A stretch of 50,959 nucleotides of DNA, from positions 1 through 50,959 of the forward strand of contig CAMYIN010000042.1 of NCBI GenBank assembly GCA_947258495.1, read 5' to 3'. Position 1 is the first letter of the stretch. Each line of letters begins with the position of its first letter. Origin of the DNA: an uncultured Gammaproteobacteria bacterium (lineage in GTDB: Bacteria; Pseudomonadota; Gammaproteobacteria; Arenicellales; JAANXG01). The position numbers and the translations under genes are program-made. Of this stretch, positions 13,870 to 37,064 are shown piece by piece. The notes below the pieces were generated by a model, which was not told the DNA's origin, searched no databases, and saw only the letters and a program-made list of their open reading frames with translations.

Positions 13870-15099
13870 ATGCCCACCGAACGTATCAGTTTTGCCGGAA
13901 CGGATGGAATCTTGGATGCCCGTCTCGACCAACCACGCGGCCGCCCGAGGGCCTACGCACTGTTTGCACACTGCTTCACCTGTTCCAAAGAAACGGTGGC
14001 CGCTTCCCGCATCAGTCGCGCTCTCGCGGAGCGGGGCATAGCGGTGCTGCGTTTCGATTTCACCGGCCTCGGCGGCAGCGAAGGGGAATTCGCCAACACC
14101 AATTTCAGCTCCAACGTTCAGGATCTGCTGAAGGCCGTTGAGTATCTGCGACAGAACGCGGCGGCCCCAGGCATTCTGATCGGGCACAGTCTGGGCGGCG
14201 CTGCGGTACTGAGTGCCGCCGCCGAGGCGGTGGAAGCGCTCGCTGTCGTCACCATCGGCGCTCCAAGTGACCCCGCGCACGTGCGTCATCTGTTTTCCGG
14301 ACAGGTCGAAGAGATAGCCGCCCTGGGTGCGCAGACAGTCAGCTTGGGTGGACGAGAGTTTTTAGTGCGCAAACAGTTCCTCGACGATATTGCTGAGCAA
14401 CGATTGTCGGAAAAGATCCGCATCATGCGCAAGGCCCTGTTGATCCTGCACAGCCCACAGGACGAGGTCGTCGATATCGATCACGCGCGGACGATCTATC
14501 AGGCGGCGCTGCACCCGAAGAGCTTTATTTCGCTGGACGGTGCGGATCACATGCTGAGACGCAAACAGGACGCAGAATACGTAGCGTCCATGGTCAGCGC
14601 ATGGGTGGATCGCTATCTCCCCACCTCCGATGAGAAGGCGGTGCCGGATAACCGTCCGCGGACGGTAAAGGTTTCAGAAGCCGTACAGGGCCGGTACGCG
14701 CAGAATGTCGAACTCGGCCCCCATCGGCTGCGCGCGGACGAACCGGAGACCTACGGCGGGGACGATACAGGACCTTCGCCATACGATCTTCTGCTCGCGG
14801 CGCTCGGTGCCTGCACCTCCATGACCCTGCGCATGTACGCGGAGCATAAGAAGCTGGCGCTCGATCACGTCGAAGTCGAATTGTCGCACCAGAAGATCCA
14901 CGCCAGCGATTGCGAGAGCTGCGACACCAAGACCGGGAAGATCGATCGCATCGATCGGACAATTCATCTTGAAGGTAGGTTTGAACCGGAACAGCGCGCG
15001 CGGTTGCTGGAGATCGCCGATAAGTGTCCGGTGCATAGAACCCTGCACTCCGAAGTGTTGGTGAAGACGCGCTATCGAGACGTGTCGCAGACCGCTTAA
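13870..15099 (+). CDS. Alpha/beta hydrolase-OsmC fusion protein
   Basis: The product is 409 residues. The ATG at 13870 has GAAGGA eight bases upstream. Residues 1-255 are an alpha/beta hydrolase, with nucleophile elbow GHSLGG at ~100 and a terminal His in GADHM at ~222. Residues ~270-405 are an OsmC/Ohr-like domain with its two peroxidatic cysteines, in [12 protein letters not shown] and DKCPVHRTL. Extra cysteines occur in [11 protein letters not shown]. OsmC proteins reduce organic hydroperoxides. The attached hydrolase might release peroxidised acyl groups for reduction, but that link is inferred. The fusion is recurrent in proteobacteria, with the hydrolase always N-terminal. No signal peptide is present, so it is cytoplasmic. 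Confidence 0.93.
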
Positions 15100-15973: not shown

Positions 15974-15998
15974 GGAATAAAACGCTCGATAAGGCGTC
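15974..15998 (+). promoter_or_regulatory. Candidate ECF-type promoter for the sigma/anti-sigma operon
   Basis: GGAAT (15974-15978), 16 bases and CGTC (15995-15998) resemble the GGAA...CGT promoters used by many ECF sigma factors. It lies 30 bases before the sigma gene, which fits autoregulation. A looser version, GGAAC-N18-CGTG, occurs at 17308-17334 before the DsrE-like gene. Confidence 0.35.
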
Positions 15999-16027: not shown

Positions 16028-16582
16028 ATGACGCTGCTTCACAGTCGCCGGCAAAAAGAGATTCGCAAAAGGCTCGAAGGCATGCGGCCGCGGTTGTACC
16101 GTGTGGCGTTTGCCTGGACCCACAACCGATCTCTGGCCGAGGATCTTACCCAGGACACGCTGGTCAAGGCGCTGCAGGCCGCGCGTCAGCTGCGCGAGCT
16201 CGAGTCGCTCGACGCCTGGTTATTTCGAATCATGAGTAACTGTCGGCGCGACCATTTTCGCAATCAAGTCAGCACCGAAAACGTCGATAACTACGATCTC
16301 GTCGACGAGCGTACGCCCGAGACGCGGAGCAGCGAGCAGCAGCTGATCCAGAAGGTTCGCGATTCGGTCGAAGCACTGCCCGAAACGCATCGCCAGACGT
16401 TAACCCTCGTGGACATCGAAGGTTTTTCCTATATGGAGACCGCATCGATCTTGGAAATACCCGTCGGCACCGTAATGAGCCGCTTGTCGCGGGCTCGCGC
16501 GCGATTGCGTAAGTTGCTCGCGACTCAGCACGTCGACGTTCGCGGCAACGACAGCAATGCGCGTCTAAGGAGAATAAAGTGA
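16028..16582 (+). CDS. ECF sigma factor (sigma-70 family)
   Basis: The product is 184 residues. Region 2 has RSLAEDLTQDTLVKALQ and SLDAWLFRIMSNCRRDHFR at ~38-80. Region 4 has a helix-turn-helix in FSYMETASILEIPVGTVMSRLSRAR (shown in part) at ~133-160. No region 3 is present, as expected for ECF factors. The stop overlaps the next gene's GTG as GTGA, the usual sigma/anti-sigma coupling. It differs from the RpoE-type sigma at 36477-37064, so the window encodes two separate ECF systems. It should direct transcription in response to release from the membrane anti-sigma factor. Its regulon is unknown, though the adjacent DsrE-like gene is the prime candidate. Confidence 0.93.
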   Translation: MTLLHSRRQKEIRKRLEGMRPRLYRVAFAWTHNRSLAEDLTQDTLVKALQAARQLRELESLDAWLFRIMSNCRRDHFRNQVSTENVDNYDLVDERTPETRSSEQQLIQKVRDSVEALPETHRQTLTLVDIEGFSYMETASILEIPVGTVMSRLSRARARLRKLLATQHVDVRGNDSNARLRRIK

Positions 16583-17292
16583 CCGAGATGGAGCACATTA
16601 CCGAGGAAATGCTCAACGCGTTCATCGACCAGGAACTGGCCGACAACGACATGATGCACGTCTACTTGGCGATGTCTAAAGATCCCGACCTTCGCGATCG
16701 TGTCTGCGAACTGCGTGCCAATAAGGAACTTCTGCGCGCCGCGTATCGTCAGGTCCCGGCTCCACGAAAATACCAACGCCCGCCCGGCTTGCTTCCCCGG
16801 ACGGCGATGGCCGCGGGCATTATGTCGTTGGGAGTGGGCGCATTGCTGGGCTGGTATGCGCACTCGTTCTCCCAGTCAGACAATCCGCCTAGAACGGTTG
16901 CCCGCGCATATCAAACCTTCGACTCGAAAGTAAAGGTCGTGTTTCACGTCAGTCGAAACGACGCCGCTGCATTCGCACAGATTCTGGACGAGGCCGAGGC
17001 GTTAGTCGCGGCTGAGGACGACAAACGTTCGAACAATTCCGTCCGCATCGTCGCGAACGGCGACGGTCTGTTCCTGCTGAGCGCAAAAGCATCGCCATTC
17101 AAAGACAGAATCCGCATTCTCAGCGAAAAATACAATAATCTCGTGTTTGCCGGATGTTCGCAGACGCAAAAACGACTCCAACGTGAACGCGGCCTGAGCG
17201 TAGATCTGCTTCCCCAGGTAAGCACAGTCAATTCGGGCGTGTTCGAAGTCCTTCGCCTGCAGGAAGCCGGGTGGAAATACATACCGATCTAA
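16579..17292 (+). CDS. Membrane anti-sigma factor with periplasmic DsrE-like domain
   Basis: The product is 237 residues from a GTG overlapping the sigma gene's stop. Residues 1-75 are a cytoplasmic anti-sigma-like region (EEMLNAFIDQELADNDMM), without the HxxxCxxC zinc motif. One membrane helix follows (TAMAAGIMSLGVGALLGWY, ~76-95). The periplasmic part (~115-237) aligns along its whole length with the DsrE-like protein encoded next. KVVFHVS matches KLVIQVS, VRIVANGDGLFLL matches IEIVAYGPGLSML, FAGCSQT matches FSACGNT, and EAGWKYI matches EQGWTYV. Both have a single Cys at the same place. The DsrE fold is usually soluble and handles sulfur or disulfides, so this looks like a thiol or ligand sensor. 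The anti-sigma role is inferred from position and topology. Confidence 0.8.
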   Translation: MTEMEHITEEMLNAFIDQELADNDMMHVYLAMSKDPDLRDRVCELRANKELLRAAYRQVPAPRKYQRPPGLLPRTAMAAGIMSLGVGALLGWYAHSFSQSDNPPRTVARAYQTFDSKVKVVFHVSRNDAAAFAQILDEAEALVAAEDDKRSNNSVRIVANGDGLFLLSAKASPFKDRIRILSEKYNNLVFAGCSQTQKRLQRERGLSVDLLPQVSTVNSGVFEVLRLQEAGWKYIPI

Positions 17293-17462
17293 CGGATTCA
17301 CGGTGTTGGAACAACTCCGATCGAGATATTCGTGTTTCCTATGGAATAAATTTGACCTGGATGACGTCATAACCGGCGAGCTCCGGACGACGCTCGCGGT
17401 GTTTATCCGATGAGCCGTTCGTTTCAATACCCATTACCCCTAAATCCGAGGAGAGAATATTG

Positions 17463-17900
17463 ATGCAACCACTCAGATCCACCACGAGCCTGGCCTTGGT
17501 CCTGCTGCTGGCGATGATCGGATTGCAAGGCAACGCGTTTGCGGATGCCAAACACAAGCTCGTAATTCAAGTAAGCACCGACGATGTGCGAACCCAAAAC
17601 ATCGCCCTAAACAATGCGGTAAACCTGCAGAAAGCGCTCGGAGACGATGTGCAGATCGAGATCGTCGCCTACGGTCCCGGCCTGAGCATGTTGACGCCCA
17701 AGAGCCCCGCATCCAAGAGGGTGCCGGATCTGGCCTTGTATGAAAACATAACTTTCAGCGCCTGCGGCAACACCATGAAGAACGTTTCCAAGAAGACCGG
17801 CAAAGACGTGACCCTGGTCGACGGCGTTAAAGTGGTCCCCGCGGGTGTACTCCGCATCATGGAGTTGCAGGAACAGGGCTGGACGTATGTGAGGCCTTAA
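17463..17900 (+). CDS. Exported DsrE-like protein
   Basis: The product is 145 residues. The ATG at 17463 has GAGGAGAG upstream; a TTG directly before it is the alternative. The signal peptide is SLALVLLLAMIGLQGNAFA. The mature protein is a DsrE/DsrF-like domain with one cysteine, in FSACGNTMKNV, and the ending RIMELQEQGWTYVRP. It is a paralogue of the C-terminal half of the anti-sigma factor before it. Cytoplasmic DsrE proteins transfer sulfane sulfur in sulfur oxidation, and exported single-Cys relatives are of unknown function. It may compete with or signal to the anti-sigma factor's sensor domain. A strong hairpin terminator follows directly, closing the unit. Confidence 0.85.
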   Translation: MQPLRSTTSLALVLLLAMIGLQGNAFADAKHKLVIQVSTDDVRTQNIALNNAVNLQKALGDDVQIEIVAYGPGLSMLTPKSPASKRVPDLALYENITFSACGNTMKNVSKKTGKDVTLVDGVKVVPAGVLRIMELQEQGWTYVRP

Positions 17901-17924
17901 TCCAAGTTCGCCATTTACAACGGA

Positions 17925-17969
17925 AAACGCGTGCGGTCGGTCATTGAAGGACCGCACGCGTTTGTTTTC
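17925..17969. terminator. Strong hairpin, probable bidirectional terminator
   Basis: A perfect 14-bp stem (AAACGCGTGCGGTC at 17925-17938 paired with 17950-17963) encloses an 11-base loop. TTTGTTTTC follows on the plus strand and an A-run precedes it, which would read as T on the minus strand. It lies between the convergent DsrE-like and spermidine-synthase-like genes. Confidence 0.85.
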
Positions 17970-18021
17970 GAAACGTCGCTGCGCCGCAGCCGCCCGGCCG
18001 TGGCTTTACACAGAACTCGCG

Positions 18022-33504: not shown

Positions 33505-34935
33505 CTAGTTTCTATTCTCCGCGCCGCTGTTTTTCTTCAAGGCGAGGAACAGCGAATGATTTTGCCGTCTAATCAGAATCGGAACGGATTTACCTGGCGT
33601 CAAGCCTTCGATTATCTCCCTGAGCTCTTCAATGTTCCTGACCGGCTTGTCCTGGATTTGGACGATGACATCGCCGGCCTGGACGCCCGCACGGCTTGCC
33701 GGTCCCGACTCCACTTCAACCACAAAGACGCCTTCTTCCAGACCCGTGCTCTTTTTCTGCTCGCGGGTCAGGTCTTTAACGGTCATACCCATCAATTGCT
33801 CGTCTTGCTTTTTCTCCCGGGCCCGAAGCGCGATTTCCTGTTCCTCTTCCGGCAACTCTCCGATGGTGACCTTTACGGTCTGCAAGTTCCCGCCGCGCAA
33901 TATCTTTAACTTCACGGTCTCGCCAATGGGCGTAAGGCCGACCAGGGGAGGCAAGTCCGCCATCCTCGACAATTCCTGGTCGTTGTAGCTCAATATGATG
34001 TCGCCGGGTTTGAGATTGGAGTCCGCAGCGGGGCTGTTGCGAAGTATCTCGGACACCAGAGCGCCGACCGGTTTTGCCATCCCAAAAGACTCCGCCAGTT
34101 CTCGCGTCACGTCCTGGATGAGCACACCCAGCCAACCTCGGGACACCTTTCCGCTTTGACGAAGCTGGCTCGCGACTTCCGTTGCGATATCTATGGGCAC
34201 CGCGAACGACAGCCCCATGAAGCCGCCGGTTCGACTGTAGATCTGCGCGTTTATGCCGACGACCTCGCCGTCGAGATTGAACAACGGTCCACCGGAGTTC
34301 CCAGGATTTATCGCCACATCGGTCTGTATGAACGGGACGTAGTTTTCATTGGGAAGGCTGCGACCCTTGGCCGACACGATGCCTGCCGTCGCGGTGCTTT
34401 CGAATCCGAAAGGCGACCCGATCGCGAGCACCCATTCTCCCACAGACAATTGTTCCGGATTGCCGATCTTCACCGTCGGCAATCCGTCGGCTTCTACCTT
34501 TAATAGTGCCACGTCGCTGCGGCGGTCGGCCCCGATTACCTTGGCTTCGAGCTCCCGACGGTCACTGAAGCGGACGATGATCTCGGTCGCGTCCGCGATG
34601 ACGTGCGCGGACGTCATGATGTAGCCGTCCGCAGATAGGACGAAACCCGATCCCAGCGATCGAGCATCCCGCTCGTCGGGAAGTTCGTCGAAGAAGCGGC
34701 GGAAAAAATCCCGAAACGGGCTGTCCTCGGGGATATCGGGAAGATTGAACTCTTTGGGTATTTTTCGCTGTTTCAATACTTGCGTGGTACTTATATTGAC
34801 CACCGATCCGGCGTTCTGCTTGACCAACGCAGCGAAATCCGGCAATCCACCGCGATATCCGAATGCTGGATGATAAACGCAAAACAACGCCAAAAAACCG
34901 GTGATTTTCAGGTATTTGGTCAAATTCACAATCAA
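33505..34935 (-). CDS. mucD: MucD/DegP-type periplasmic serine protease
   Basis: The product is 476 residues from a TTG at 34935, with GGAG upstream and only two bases after rseB; GTG at 34929 is the alternative. The signal peptide is KYLKITGFLALFCVYHPAFG. The catalytic triad is H111 (MTSAHVIADA), D141 (RRSDVALLKVEA) and S214 (INPGNSGGPLFN). Two PDZ domains follow (~260-360 and ~380-470). It is a quality-control protease that degrades misfolded envelope proteins. Linkage to rseA-rseB matches the Pseudomonas mucD arrangement. I see no rseC/mucC between. Confidence 0.95.
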   Translation of the reverse strand: MIVNLTKYLKITGFLALFCVYHPAFGYRGGLPDFAALVKQNAGSVVNISTTQVLKQRKIPKEFNLPDIPEDSPFRDFFRRFFDELPDERDARSLGSGFVLSADGYIMTSAHVIADATEIIVRFSDRRELEAKVIGADRRSDVALLKVEADGLPTVKIGNPEQLSVGEWVLAIGSPFGFESTATAGIVSAKGRSLPNENYVPFIQTDVAINPGNSGGPLFNLDGEVVGINAQIYSRTGGFMGLSFAVPIDIATEVASQLRQSGKVSRGWLGVLIQDVTRELAESFGMAKPVGALVSEILRNSPAADSNLKPGDIILSYNDQELSRMADLPPLVGLTPIGETVKLKILRGGNLQTVKVTIGELPEEEQEIALRAREKKQDEQLMGMTVKDLTREQKKSTGLEEGVFVVEVESGPASRAGVQAGDVIVQIQDKPVRNIEELREIIEGLTPGKSVPILIRRQNHSLFLALKKNSGAENRN

Positions 34936-34937
34936 AC

Positions 34938-35909
34938 TTACTCCGATCTCTTCACAGACATGGCAATCATTTTCGCGGTCGCCTCGGGCACCTCACCGAC
35001 AACGGTAACCTGATGGCCGTCGACGACCCTGCCGTAGGCGCTGACCGCCCCAATGCTGTTTGGCCCACTTATGGGCTCGGTTTCCGCATCCGCCATTTTG
35101 TCGACGAATATCGAAACGGCGGTCAAGCCGTCTGAATATACCAGATGTTCAACCATTTTTTGCCGCATCGGGGACATTCGCCGCATTTTGCGAGAAAGCA
35201 TGAAGCCGTCGGGGACCCGAGTCGCCGCCCAATGGCCGCTGTCCTCGACCGCGCCCTTGCCCTCAGCCCTGTTGACCCCGAACCAGACGAGCTTATCCTT
35301 TCGCGTTGCCGGTTCGAGGTCCTGTTCGGACACCGCTTGTCCGATGCGGATGTCCGTGAACATGTATTGCTCGATCGCATCGCCTTGTATCCCCATCAAC
35401 GACGCCTTGAGCAACAACCCAGTCTCTTCGTCCACCCACAATTCATGGCCATAACGATACTGGTCCCTGGGAAATATCCAGATCTGAACCGCAGTCCGAT
35501 CCGCGATTCGATCCTTTCGGCCCATGGAAATACGGTAGTTCTTTTCGAGCTTGGAGACGCGCTTGGGAAGAATATGGGGAAAATTGTTATCCGAGACCTG
35601 ACGATATTCATGCACGCCCATGTTGCGGTCCGGAAGGTAACACCAAACCTGTTCGGCGTCGCGGACGATTTCACGTGGAGAACCGTTCAAGGAGTAAATG
35701 CGTTCCCTCAAAACCCCTGCGCTGGACTGGTGCACTACCCGCATGACTTCTATCTGACTTTCTTGCACATAAATGAACGTGCCCTGATAGTCCAGTTCCA
35801 TGGCGGCATCGTTCATCTTCATCAACCAGTCCTTGATGTCACCGTCCGCACGGGTTGAAATAGCCATCGAAAGAGAGACAGCGAGCCCGACGAGTCTCAG
35901 GAGGTTCAT
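34938..35909 (-). CDS. rseB: Sigma-E regulator RseB/MucB
   Basis: The product is 323 residues. The ATG at 35909 overlaps the rseA stop as TAATG. The signal peptide is NLLRLVGLAVSLSMAISTRA. The mature part has an N-terminal LolA-like beta domain (AMELDYQGTFIYVQESQIEVM, then LRERIYSLNGSPREIVRD) and a C-terminal domain (TRVPDGFMLSRKMRR, then SDGLTAVSIFVD). RseB binds RseA in the periplasm and protects it from proteolysis; lipid or lipopolysaccharide signals release it. Family identity is clear. Confidence 0.95.
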   Translation of the reverse strand: MNLLRLVGLAVSLSMAISTRADGDIKDWLMKMNDAAMELDYQGTFIYVQESQIEVMRVVHQSSAGVLRERIYSLNGSPREIVRDAEQVWCYLPDRNMGVHEYRQVSDNNFPHILPKRVSKLEKNYRISMGRKDRIADRTAVQIWIFPRDQYRYGHELWVDEETGLLLKASLMGIQGDAIEQYMFTDIRIGQAVSEQDLEPATRKDKLVWFGVNRAEGKGAVEDSGHWAATRVPDGFMLSRKMRRMSPMRQKMVEHLVYSDGLTAVSIFVDKMADAETEPISGPNSIGAVSAYGRVVDGHQVTVVGEVPEATAKMIAMSVKRSE

Positions 35910-36475
35910 TACTTTTCGTCGTAGCTCACGAACTTCGCGTACGACACCAAACCATTGAGCCCTGACATCGGCGTGAATTCGCCGTGTTCCACCAAAAATG
36001 CGTTCAACTGCTCTTCGTGTTCCGGGTGGGTATTGACCCACCTCGTGGAGCCGTCGACGGCAGTCGTCGCAGTATCCTGGATTGTTGCCGGAACGATATC
36101 GTCGCGTGCTATGTATATGCCGAGCACTACAGCGATCATCAGCGATAATGCGGCGACGCCCGCCGGTTTCCAATTTTCTTCAAAACCGAAGAGTCCCGAT
36201 CTCGCCTGCCGCTTCGGTGGATCTCCTGGCCTATCGTGGTGGATCATGCGCCCGACGCATTGCATCAGCTCTGGGCACAAAGTGACGAGTTCTCTGCGAA
36301 CAGAGGCTCCGATAACGTGATACCGATTCCATAGATCCGCAAGCCGCTTATCCCGGCTGACCATTTTCAACAGCTTTTCCCGGTCGCGTCCGGACAACTC
36401 GTCGTCCAACAATGCCGAAATCTTTTCTTTCAGCACAGTTTCGTCTTTGACATCTCTTTGCTTCACACACCTCAC
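35909..36475 (-). CDS. rseA: Anti-sigma factor RseA/MucA
   Basis: The product is 188 residues from a GTG at 36475, just after rpoE. A second GTG three codons later (36466) has a better ribosome-site spacing, so the first three residues are uncertain. The N-terminal domain (LKEKISALLDDELSGRDREK) binds the sigma factor. One membrane helix follows (GVAALSLMIAVVLGIYI, ~107-123), and a short periplasmic tail to 188 binds RseB and proteases. Sequence identity is loose, but order, size and topology match. Confidence 0.93.
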   Translation of the reverse strand: MRCVKQRDVKDETVLKEKISALLDDELSGRDREKLLKMVSRDKRLADLWNRYHVIGASVRRELVTLCPELMQCVGRMIHHDRPGDPPKRQARSGLFGFEENWKPAGVAALSLMIAVVLGIYIARDDIVPATIQDTATTAVDGSTRWVNTHPEHEEQLNAFLVEHGEFTPMSGLNGLVSYAKFVSYDEK

Positions 36476-36476
36476 C

Positions 36477-37064
36477 CTATTTCAACAATGGTCTCAGATT
36501 CTTGTCGATCGCCTCTCGTGCCCTGAATATTCGAGATCGGACGGTTCCTATCGGACAATCCATGACGGTGGCGATTTCTTCATAGCTCAACCCTTCAAGT
36601 TCTCTAAGAGTTATCGCCAATCGCAAATCCTCGGGAAGCTCTCGCACCGCCTTCGATACTCGATCGGCCAACTCTCGACTCAGCAAGTTTGACTCCGGAG
36701 TACCGATGTCCCGGAGGTTTCGGCCCGATTCCGTCAGTTCGGCATCACTGGCTTCGACATCGGTATTCGGCGGTCTGCGGCTCTGAGCAACCAGATAGTT
36801 CTTCGCCGTATTTATCGCTATGCGGTACAGCCATGTGTAGAACGCACTGTCTCCACGAAAGCCCCCAATCGCGCGATAGGCTTTTACGAACACCTCCTGA
36901 GCGATGTCCTCGATTTCGGACTGGTCGTAAACGTACCGGGAAATGAGATTTGAAACCTTGAACTGATATTTGCGAACCAGCAGATCGAAGGCGCTTTTGT
37001 CGCCCTTCTGCACCCGTTTTACAATACTTGCATCAACGCCCTGTCGATCTGTTTTCGGCTTCAT
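36477..37064 (-). CDS. rpoE: RNA polymerase sigma-E/AlgU
   Basis: The product is 195 residues. Regions 2 and 4 are well conserved: VRKYQFKVSNLISRYV and SEIEDIAQEVFVKAYR, then SAFYTWLYRIAINTAKNYLV, and later LEGLSYEEIATVMDCPIGTV with the helix-turn-helix. It transcribes envelope-stress genes including its own operon. The gene order rpoE-rseA-rseB-mucD is the AlgU arrangement. A candidate self-promoter is at 37106-37132. It is divergent from nadB, as in many gammaproteobacteria. Confidence 0.96.
   Translation of the reverse strand: MKPKTDRQGVDASIVKRVQKGDKSAFDLLVRKYQFKVSNLISRYVYDQSEIEDIAQEVFVKAYRAIGGFRGDSAFYTWLYRIAINTAKNYLVAQSRRPPNTDVEASDAELTESGRNLRDIGTPESNLLSRELADRVSKAVRELPEDLRLAITLRELEGLSYEEIATVMDCPIGTVRSRIFRAREAIDKNLRPLLK

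Follow-up and report, generated by a model that had tools for sequence, protein, structure and literature searches.

An ECF sigma factor, an anti-sigma factor with a DsrE-fold domain and a free exported DsrE-fold protein: an apparently undescribed signalling variant with a computational tie to sulfur oxidation

We analyzed a stretch of 50,959 nucleotides (the window), contig C42 (CAMYIN010000042.1) of the genome of an uncultured gammaproteobacterium, which comprises 3.18 Mb in 217 contigs. The subject of this report is a locus at 16028–17900, where an earlier note, made from the letters alone, had placed an extracytoplasmic function (ECF) sigma factor, its anti-sigma factor and an exported DsrE-like protein. 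All three genes were confirmed at these positions, on the forward strand, to which the other features of the locus also belong. The sigma gene (16028–16582) encodes 184 residues that match Sigma70_r2 (53.5 bits) and Sigma70_r4_2 (54.3 bits), each above the Pfam cut-off, and the protein also exceeds the cut-off of NCBIfam TIGR02937. With only regions 2 and 4 in about 180 residues, it is an ECF sigma factor. The anti-sigma gene (16579–17292), recognized by structure prediction, hydropathy and full-length conservation in relatives, encodes 237 residues. Its GTG start at 16579 overlaps the TGA stop of the sigma gene (16580–16582) by four bases; this GTGA overlap had been noted before, and both the overlap and the GTG start recur in all five same-genus copies (L007–L011). 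The third gene (17463–17900) encodes an exported protein of 145 residues, hereafter the free DsrE protein, recognized by its fold, by sequence search and by a Sec-type signal peptide at approximately residues 1–28, read by eye. Its start is more likely the ATG at 17463 than the TTG at 17460.

The anti-sigma factor consists of an N-terminal helical domain (approximately residues 9–57), a membrane helix (approximately 74–94) and a C-terminal DsrE-fold domain (115–237, encoded at 16921–17289), the last supported by model confidence, Foldseek matches and its place in a single clade of the tree described below. In the predicted model, the N-terminal helices span residues 9–16, 22–34 and 36–57. This N-terminus matched NF052375 alone in NCBIfam (E 0.003, under the cut-off), and a Pfam scan of the protein gave no anti-sigma domain match. 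A search for other anti-sigma proteins with DsrE tails, which the earlier note had proposed, yielded 80 distinct two-domain proteins, taken from fetched loci by matching to profiles that were made from ten seed proteins, all with the cysteine discussed below. The zinc motif Hx3Cx2C was present in 0/80 of these proteins, so the anti-sigma domain would be of the non-zinc kind. Hydropathy peaked at residues 76–94, and the model placed a helix, with low confidence, at 81–97. The DsrE domain lies beyond this membrane helix and probably faces the periplasm.

The earlier note had also aligned the C-terminus of the anti-sigma factor with the free DsrE protein, and BLASTP bore this out. The two share 36% identity over 121 residues (E 9e-19), and the alignment pairs Cys193 of the anti-sigma factor (codon 17155–17157) with Cys101 of the free protein (codon 17763–17765), as well as the two C-terminal endings. 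PF02635 was the best Pfam match for both proteins, with scores that missed its cut-off of 22.7 bits (17.3 bits for the whole anti-sigma factor and 18.6 bits for its domain; 21.3 bits for the free protein). Sequence searches tied both proteins to MTH1491 (1l1s), with E values of 4.7e-13 and 1.2e-4, and also to the solved ST0148; for the free family, a profile search gave this tie as well. AlphaFold2 models were built on relatives. The predicted local distance difference test score was mostly 92–97 from residue 121 of the anti-sigma factor onward, with one loop block at 76, and averaged 85 in the free protein. In Foldseek comparisons, the anti-sigma model matched 1l1s at E 2.9e-8 with a template modeling (TM) score of 0.86 by target length, and the free protein model matched it with a TM score of 0.90, also by target length. 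The free protein model further matched 2pd2, 1jx7, 2hy5 and 2d1p, and the anti-sigma model matched 2pd2, 2qs7 and, weakly, 2hy5. As judged from these models, both proteins have the DsrE fold that had been suspected, matching solved DsrE-type proteins rather than unrelated folds. The sequence searches, the BLASTP alignment and the fold matches rule out a chance likeness of the two DsrE regions. With the DsrE/TusD/YchN proteins of PF02635 (1l1s, 2pd2, 1jx7, 2hy5 and 2d1p), the window proteins share the fold and a conserved cysteine that ends a core strand; unlike them, they are exported or fused to an anti-sigma factor, and they fall under the Pfam cut-off.

Across the 80 anti-sigma proteins, the DsrE domain retained Cys193 and Trp232 in 80/80 each, Gly231 in 78/80, Gly163 in 77/80 and His123 in 76/80. 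No other column of the domain contains as many as five cysteines, and Cys193 is kept in relatives down to approximately 28–33% identity with the window protein. Of the 62 free DsrE proteins that could be read, 59 have the matching cysteine, and one of the other three is a cut open reading frame; the count was repeated on 62 rows because an earlier set of free proteins lacked L032 (masked) and L037 (without the cysteine). This conservation bears on a reading in which the DsrE domain has no sulfur chemistry, serves only as a structural or protein-binding module and responds to a generic envelope cue. The Pfam scores below the DsrE cut-off would fit such a loss, and some DsrE folds are without proven activity. 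Set against this are the single cysteine in 80/80 proteins despite such low identities and the near-restriction of the fusion to genomes that have a SoxZ match, among the matches listed (see below), and we regard a domain without sulfur chemistry as improbable.

In a tree that combined the 80 anti-sigma DsrE domains with 62 rows of free DsrE proteins, the former fell into one clade with support of 100/99. The lone “free” row inside this clade was a cut duplicate, identical to an anti-sigma row, and the nearest rows outside it were free exported DsrE proteins. The tree was built on 123 columns only and its inner forks are weak. The single anti-sigma clade points to one fusion event.

The fusion is widespread. 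Among 60 near relatives, the five same-genus genomes all had full-length matches, as did four others. Genomes of named species contributed 28 loci, some of which may repeat organisms already present in the other samples; 23 of these matched over the full length and five over the N-terminal part only (four Thioalkalivibrio and one Candidatus Endobugula). The titles were mostly Gammaproteobacteria, those of the five same-genus genomes included, and the others were Arenicellales, Chromatiales, Rhodocyclales/Rhodocyclaceae, Hydrogenophilaceae, Pandoraea terrae and, in three cases, “Proteobacteria” with no class given. Across 369 genomes sampled from the class, some match was seen in 143, and at least 65 besides the window's genome had a full-length match; these 65 fall in at least 40 family labels, and genomes with partial matches (for example, G149, G422 and G316) were scored as being without the fusion. 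Of 398 genomes sampled across the phylum, only the window's and two of the same class had, among the matches listed, a full-length match. Another class of the phylum, which we infer to be Alphaproteobacteria, also gave strong matches, but these covered the DsrE part only, with the model covered from about residue 56–120 onward. These were rejected as anti-sigma factors: where the gene could be called, they were exported free DsrE proteins. Such proteins were also found on Rhizobium and Azospirillum plasmids, and no place in the plasmid records covered 80% of the query. At three loci of the same phylum and another class (L198, L199 and L204), the exported free DsrE gene follows a conserved small gene set, with no sigma or anti-sigma gene within 1.5 kb on either side, which suggests that the free DsrE protein has a role of its own. 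Overall, as far as the sampling reaches, the fusion seems restricted to a single class. Its spread through that class, together with the single anti-sigma clade, rules out a local or lineage oddity.

The candidate ECF promoters of the earlier note were recovered as exact matches. One, GGAATAA-N14-CGTC, precedes the sigma/anti-sigma operon (15974–15998), and a second copy, GGAATAA-N15-CGTC, precedes the free DsrE gene (17343–17368); they are the only two exact copies in the window, where 0.13 would be expected by chance. In an alignment of six genus members, GGAATAA and CGTC stand 14–15 bases apart ahead of both the sigma and the free DsrE genes. The predicted intrinsic terminator after the third gene also held up. 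It lies within 17921–17970 and has a 12-bp G+C-rich stem and an 11-base loop followed by TTGTTTT; its folding energy of −28.1 kcal/mol (z −2.15) was equalled by 7 of 200 shuffles. A simple terminator scan with a loop limit of 8 had missed this hairpin, and an Rfam search gave no match. The three genes had been taken for one regulatory unit. This stands in the sense that they form one regulon by their shared promoter; because the free DsrE gene has a sigma-type promoter of its own, there are probably two transcription starts rather than one.

In the RpoE–RseA–RseB system, an ECF sigma factor is paired with a class I membrane anti-sigma factor, and a soluble exported protein, RseB, is encoded alongside. 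The present locus resembles class I systems in its small two-region sigma factor, the overlapping anti-sigma gene with an N-terminal helical domain and one membrane helix, the C-terminal part beyond that helix and a GGAA...CGTC promoter ahead of the sigma gene. The soluble exported companion is RseB in the known system and the free DsrE protein in the window. Unlike class I systems, the window's far-side domain has a predicted DsrE fold with an invariant cysteine, and its regulon points to sulfur oxidation.

The gene neighborhood is conserved in part. A sigma gene adjoins 73 of 75 called anti-sigma genes, and in the two misses (the second copy at L095, and L111) a sigma open reading frame is present in the all-frame list. 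Of 65 anti-sigma genes (63 loci), 38 have a free DsrE gene within 6 kb, either just downstream, as in the window, or often divergent from the sigma gene. Because 40 of the neighborhoods and 20 regions were hand-picked, mostly by assembly length, the linkage rates there are no random sample; in the named-species loci, which were not hand-picked, the figure was 12 of 23, five of the 12 belonging to one genus. The linkage raised in the earlier note is therefore real, without being obligatory at the locus. We also counted the promoter motif within 400 bases upstream of called genes at the fusion loci, with the reversed motif as the control. Exact matches preceded 37/73 sigma genes, 20/50 free DsrE genes, 3/29 genes of a porin-like family described below, 4/31 sox genes and 4/721 others, and the reversed motif gave 0 in every class. 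With one mismatch allowed, the counts were 54/73, 31/50, 3/29, 5/31 and 17/721, respectively, against 0, 0, 4, 0 and 16 for the reversed control. The four exact matches among the others each precede the gene that opens the sigma operon, in L042, L046, L048 and L049, and thus support the motif. The four exact sox matches precede soxY (L051 and L052), soxX (L123) and a doubtful SoxB call (L098; E 9.1e-30), which we judged to be probably another 5'-nucleotidase.

The shared promoter, the kinship and common fold of the two DsrE regions and the linkage in 38 of 65 cases would all suit a free DsrE protein that acts as a regulatory partner, forming a mixed oligomer with the anti-sigma DsrE domains; DsrE-type proteins are commonly oligomeric. 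It could be an RseB-like brake until loaded with sulfur, or a releaser, and because its gene belongs to the regulon, a feedback loop would result. Such a partnership is less easily reconciled with the 27 of 65 anti-sigma genes that have no linked free gene, some of them on cut contigs, and with the exported free DsrE proteins that occur elsewhere in the phylum without an anti-sigma factor. We consider it conceivable and somewhat unlikely. As an observation on the free proteins themselves, copies without the usual cysteine are encoded at L037 (6572–7180, forward strand), within a sox cluster, and at L069 (1304–1732, forward strand).

A link to sulfur, which the earlier note had raised, emerged as probable from the co-occurrence of the fusion with sox genes and from the motif found before some of them. 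Among the matches listed, 65 of the 66 fusion-bearing genomes (the window's is one of them) had a SoxZ match (PF08770, E up to 0.001), versus 132 of 303 without the fusion (Fisher 1.9e-19, kinship ignored); besides the window's genome, the figure is 64 of 65. Three of the 65 matches were weak (G185, 1.4e-4; G265, 1.3e-5; G244, 5.9e-6), and 2 of the 197 SoxZ-positive genomes fell below the family cut-off. Flavocytochrome c (FCSD, FccB, PF09242) was only weakly tied to the fusion (28/65 versus 86/304, p 0.015, among the matches listed). In SoxZ genomes, again among the matches listed, SoxC exceeded its cut-off in 9/64 with the fusion versus 39/132 without it (p 0.012), so the fusion leans to truncated Sox systems. 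Co-location was partial. In L130 and L131, which were fetched because SoxZ had already been seen beside the fusion, soxX, soxY, soxZ and soxA follow the sigma/anti-sigma pair in the same direction; soxB comes next in L131, where all five sox genes pass the NCBIfam equivalog cut-offs. Counting these two, sox genes occur in the fetched flanks of 10 of 77 fusion loci, the other eight being L037, L042, L047, L048 (a partial SoxB), L051, L052, L054 and L123.

To follow the motif beyond the fusion loci, we took exact matches genome-wide in 15 genomes with the fusion and 15 others, which gave 59, and read 30 of them as loci. Three of the 30 lie ahead of soxX (L187, L192 and L193, in genomes G139, G181 and G225), and in G225 this match is on the same contig as the sigma gene. 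Two lie ahead of soxB (L168 and L188, in G139 and G320), one ahead of an unlinked DsrE gene (L176, in G186) and four at the sigma locus itself (L169, L172, L185 and L186). The 15 genomes without the fusion had 6 forward versus 16 backward exact matches. We further scored the 3 kb upstream of soxZ for motifs reading toward soxZ, at 40 loci per side among those listed, some sharing a genome; two fusion-side loci were dropped because their upstream sequence was too short. The exact motif was found at 6/38 loci from fusion genomes versus 0/40 from genomes without the fusion (Fisher 0.011), and the relaxed motif at 11/38 versus 1/40 (Fisher 0.0012, kinship ignored). On the opposite strand, the exact and relaxed counts were 1 and 1 of 38, and 0 and 1 of 40. 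The six exact motifs stand 1183–1285 bases ahead of soxZ, and in the two that were checked (L187 and L193) this is just before soxX.

These placements also bear on the idea that the system is mainly a protective response to periplasmic reactive sulfur, thiol oxidants or metals, and that the sox link arises because sulfur oxidizers meet that stress. ECF systems are usually stress responses, and the window's genus shows no recognized target beyond the sigma operon and the free DsrE gene. A motif directly ahead of soxX, soxY or soxB in several genomes, and sox genes that follow the pair in the same direction in L130 and L131, are harder to explain in this way, and we think a mainly protective role rather unlikely.

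Overall, we consider it likely that the locus is a trans-envelope, sulfur-responsive ECF switch, serving thiosulfate oxidation in part of the family. The anti-sigma factor would keep the sigma factor at the inner membrane and display the DsrE domain, with its invariant cysteine, in the periplasm. The signal would be a reactive sulfur species met or made in thiosulfate or sulfide oxidation. In known pathways, DsrE-type proteins (DsrEFH and TusBCD) relay sulfane sulfur on a cysteine. In the simplest reading, the signal would be sulfur that reaches Cys193. The most likely cargo would be sulfane sulfur or a thiosulfonate; DsrE/TusA homologues reportedly transfer thiosulfate (Liu et al. 2014, cited in PMC9861516). 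Cys193 could be loaded directly, or via the free DsrE protein or a Sox carrier. Sulfur would thus activate rather than repress the switch: the loaded domain would change, and the anti-sigma factor would let go of the sigma factor, by proteolysis or by a change of shape. The freed sigma factor would then act at GGAATAA-N14/15-CGTC promoters to transcribe its own operon, the free DsrE gene (which the porin-like gene often follows) and, in part of the family, sox genes. The free DsrE protein, both a target and kin of the sensor, may deliver sulfur, buffer it or join a mixed oligomer. Of this picture, the computation supports the architecture, the fold, the invariant cysteine, the single origin of the fusion, the promoter shared across the family, and the co-occurrence and partial co-location with sox.

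Several observations weigh against such a switch. A DsrE fold need not imply sulfur carriage. No sox gene is present in the stretch fetched at 67 of 77 fusion loci, and the 132 genomes with SoxZ and without the fusion indicate that Sox does not need it. Of the motif matches read as loci, 20 of 30 precede nothing recognized, among them all six from genomes without the fusion, and in the 15 fusion genomes the exact matches number 53 forward versus 29 backward, so that many single sites are chance. Unlinked sox operons in fusion genomes mostly lack the motif (32/38 for the exact and 27/38 for the relaxed form). Finally, soxX and soxB in the window's own genome (G000:C14) have no upstream promoter within two mismatches, and the tie to sox there is by co-occurrence only. 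That genome has seven exact matches with spacers of 13–16, two of them at this locus; the one further match with a spacer of 14/15 lies across the start of a cutA-like gene, which has a dsbD-like gene downstream, and may be due to chance.

A more specific version of the proposal is that the DsrE domain is the long-missing periplasmic sulfane-sulfur receptor for Sox-type oxidation in the window's class, where SoxC is mostly lacking. The free DsrE protein, made under the switch, would take up sulfur from the Sox cycle and bring it to the cysteine of the receptor, and what the cell reads would be the flux of thiosulfate oxidation, not how concentrated a compound is. We offer this version tentatively, as clearly less probable than the switch itself. 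Periplasmic sensing of reduced sulfur by lithotrophs is little known, and the described sensors SoxR and sHdrR bind DNA. If the proposal is true, the receptor domain and its cysteine are identified, along with the promoter sequence and the set of targets, for at least 40 family labels of the window's class. The DsrE fold would then join the sensor domains that anti-sigma factors carry, DsrE proteins would signal rather than only relay sulfur, and the motif would become usable for finding sulfur regulons in uncultured bacteria.

Among the entries listed by our searches of open-licence papers, we found no account of an anti-sigma factor that bears a DsrE domain. Related regulation has been described. 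In Sinorhizobium meliloti, the ECF26 sigma factors RpoE1 and RpoE4 respond to sulfite, and the pairs are tied to SorT and sorAB and are activated on thiosulfate and taurine (PMC3511301). These share with the window system a tie between an ECF sigma/anti-sigma pair and periplasmic sulfur oxidation; the passages of that paper on the pairs describe a COG5662-type anti-sigma factor and a “lipoprotein 15” protein, and the sole text match to DsrE in the paper is DsRed, in its references; the targets there are sulfite dehydrogenases, not sox (PMC3511301). In Arcobacter, an epsilonproteobacterium, mutants placed soxCDXYZAB under ECF sigma factors; there are seven pairs with overlapping regulons, and the activating signals were not known in that work (PMC3445524). 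ECF control of sox would be common to both systems, and DsrE is nowhere named in the text of PMC3445524. SoxR and sHdrR are ArsR-type, DNA-binding repressors that respond to sulfane sulfur (PMC10451225), and the proposed control of sox genes through cysteine-based sensing of sulfane sulfur would be shared with them. According to PMC10451225, SoxR accompanies complete Sox systems more often than truncated ones; the window fusion, by contrast, leans to genomes without SoxC. The system described here is real and widespread, a form of ECF signaling that has apparently not been described before, and its computational tie to sulfur oxidation is strong.

Other genes recur near the fusion. At 22 loci, a neighboring protein of 342–527 residues has a signal peptide and, in most cases, a terminal phenylalanine, and its gene usually lies beside the free DsrE gene. 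We read it as an outer-membrane porin-like barrel. Three members tested had no Pfam match, one had no NCBIfam match and one had no credible match in the PDB. The family has a recurring NWLMLQGTE-type start, with examples at L043 (3239–4570, reverse strand) and L131 (10919–12200, forward strand). GlnE, GroEL-like and GroES-sized neighbors recur in 6 to 8 loci and were rejected as partners, as they look like chance synteny. At L095 (8059–10394) and L096 (7569–10523), two sigma/anti-sigma(DsrE) pairs stand back to back and are flanked on both sides by a free DsrE gene, which suggests that the sensor was duplicated. The sigma operons of L042, L046, L048 and L049 open with a lipoprotein-like gene that carries the promoter; that of L048 has PEGA and SHOCT matches, and in L042 a gene for an HSP20 small heat-shock protein lies downstream.

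The window's genome has further genes of related kinds. A complete soxXYZAB set lies on contig C14 (L152, 7363–14557), not on the window's contig; nearby are a DrsE_2 (PF13686) gene and one that, by eye, is TusA-like. On another contig (L154, G000:C65, 2529–9450), a second sigma/anti-sigma pair adjoins a PF04143 sulfur-transport protein and lies near a TusA-like gene (by eye) and a short open reading frame close to a DsrE match; its anti-sigma factor has a related N-terminus, with neither a DsrE nor a Pfam match. Just upstream of the locus, the window encodes an alpha/beta hydrolase fused to an OsmC domain (13870–15099, forward strand), both above the Pfam cut-off. At 33505–37064, on the reverse strand, the window carries what looks like an RpoE–RseA–RseB–DegP operon, named by eye from translated starts, and the genome thus seems to have a conventional envelope-stress sigma system besides the DsrE-type one.

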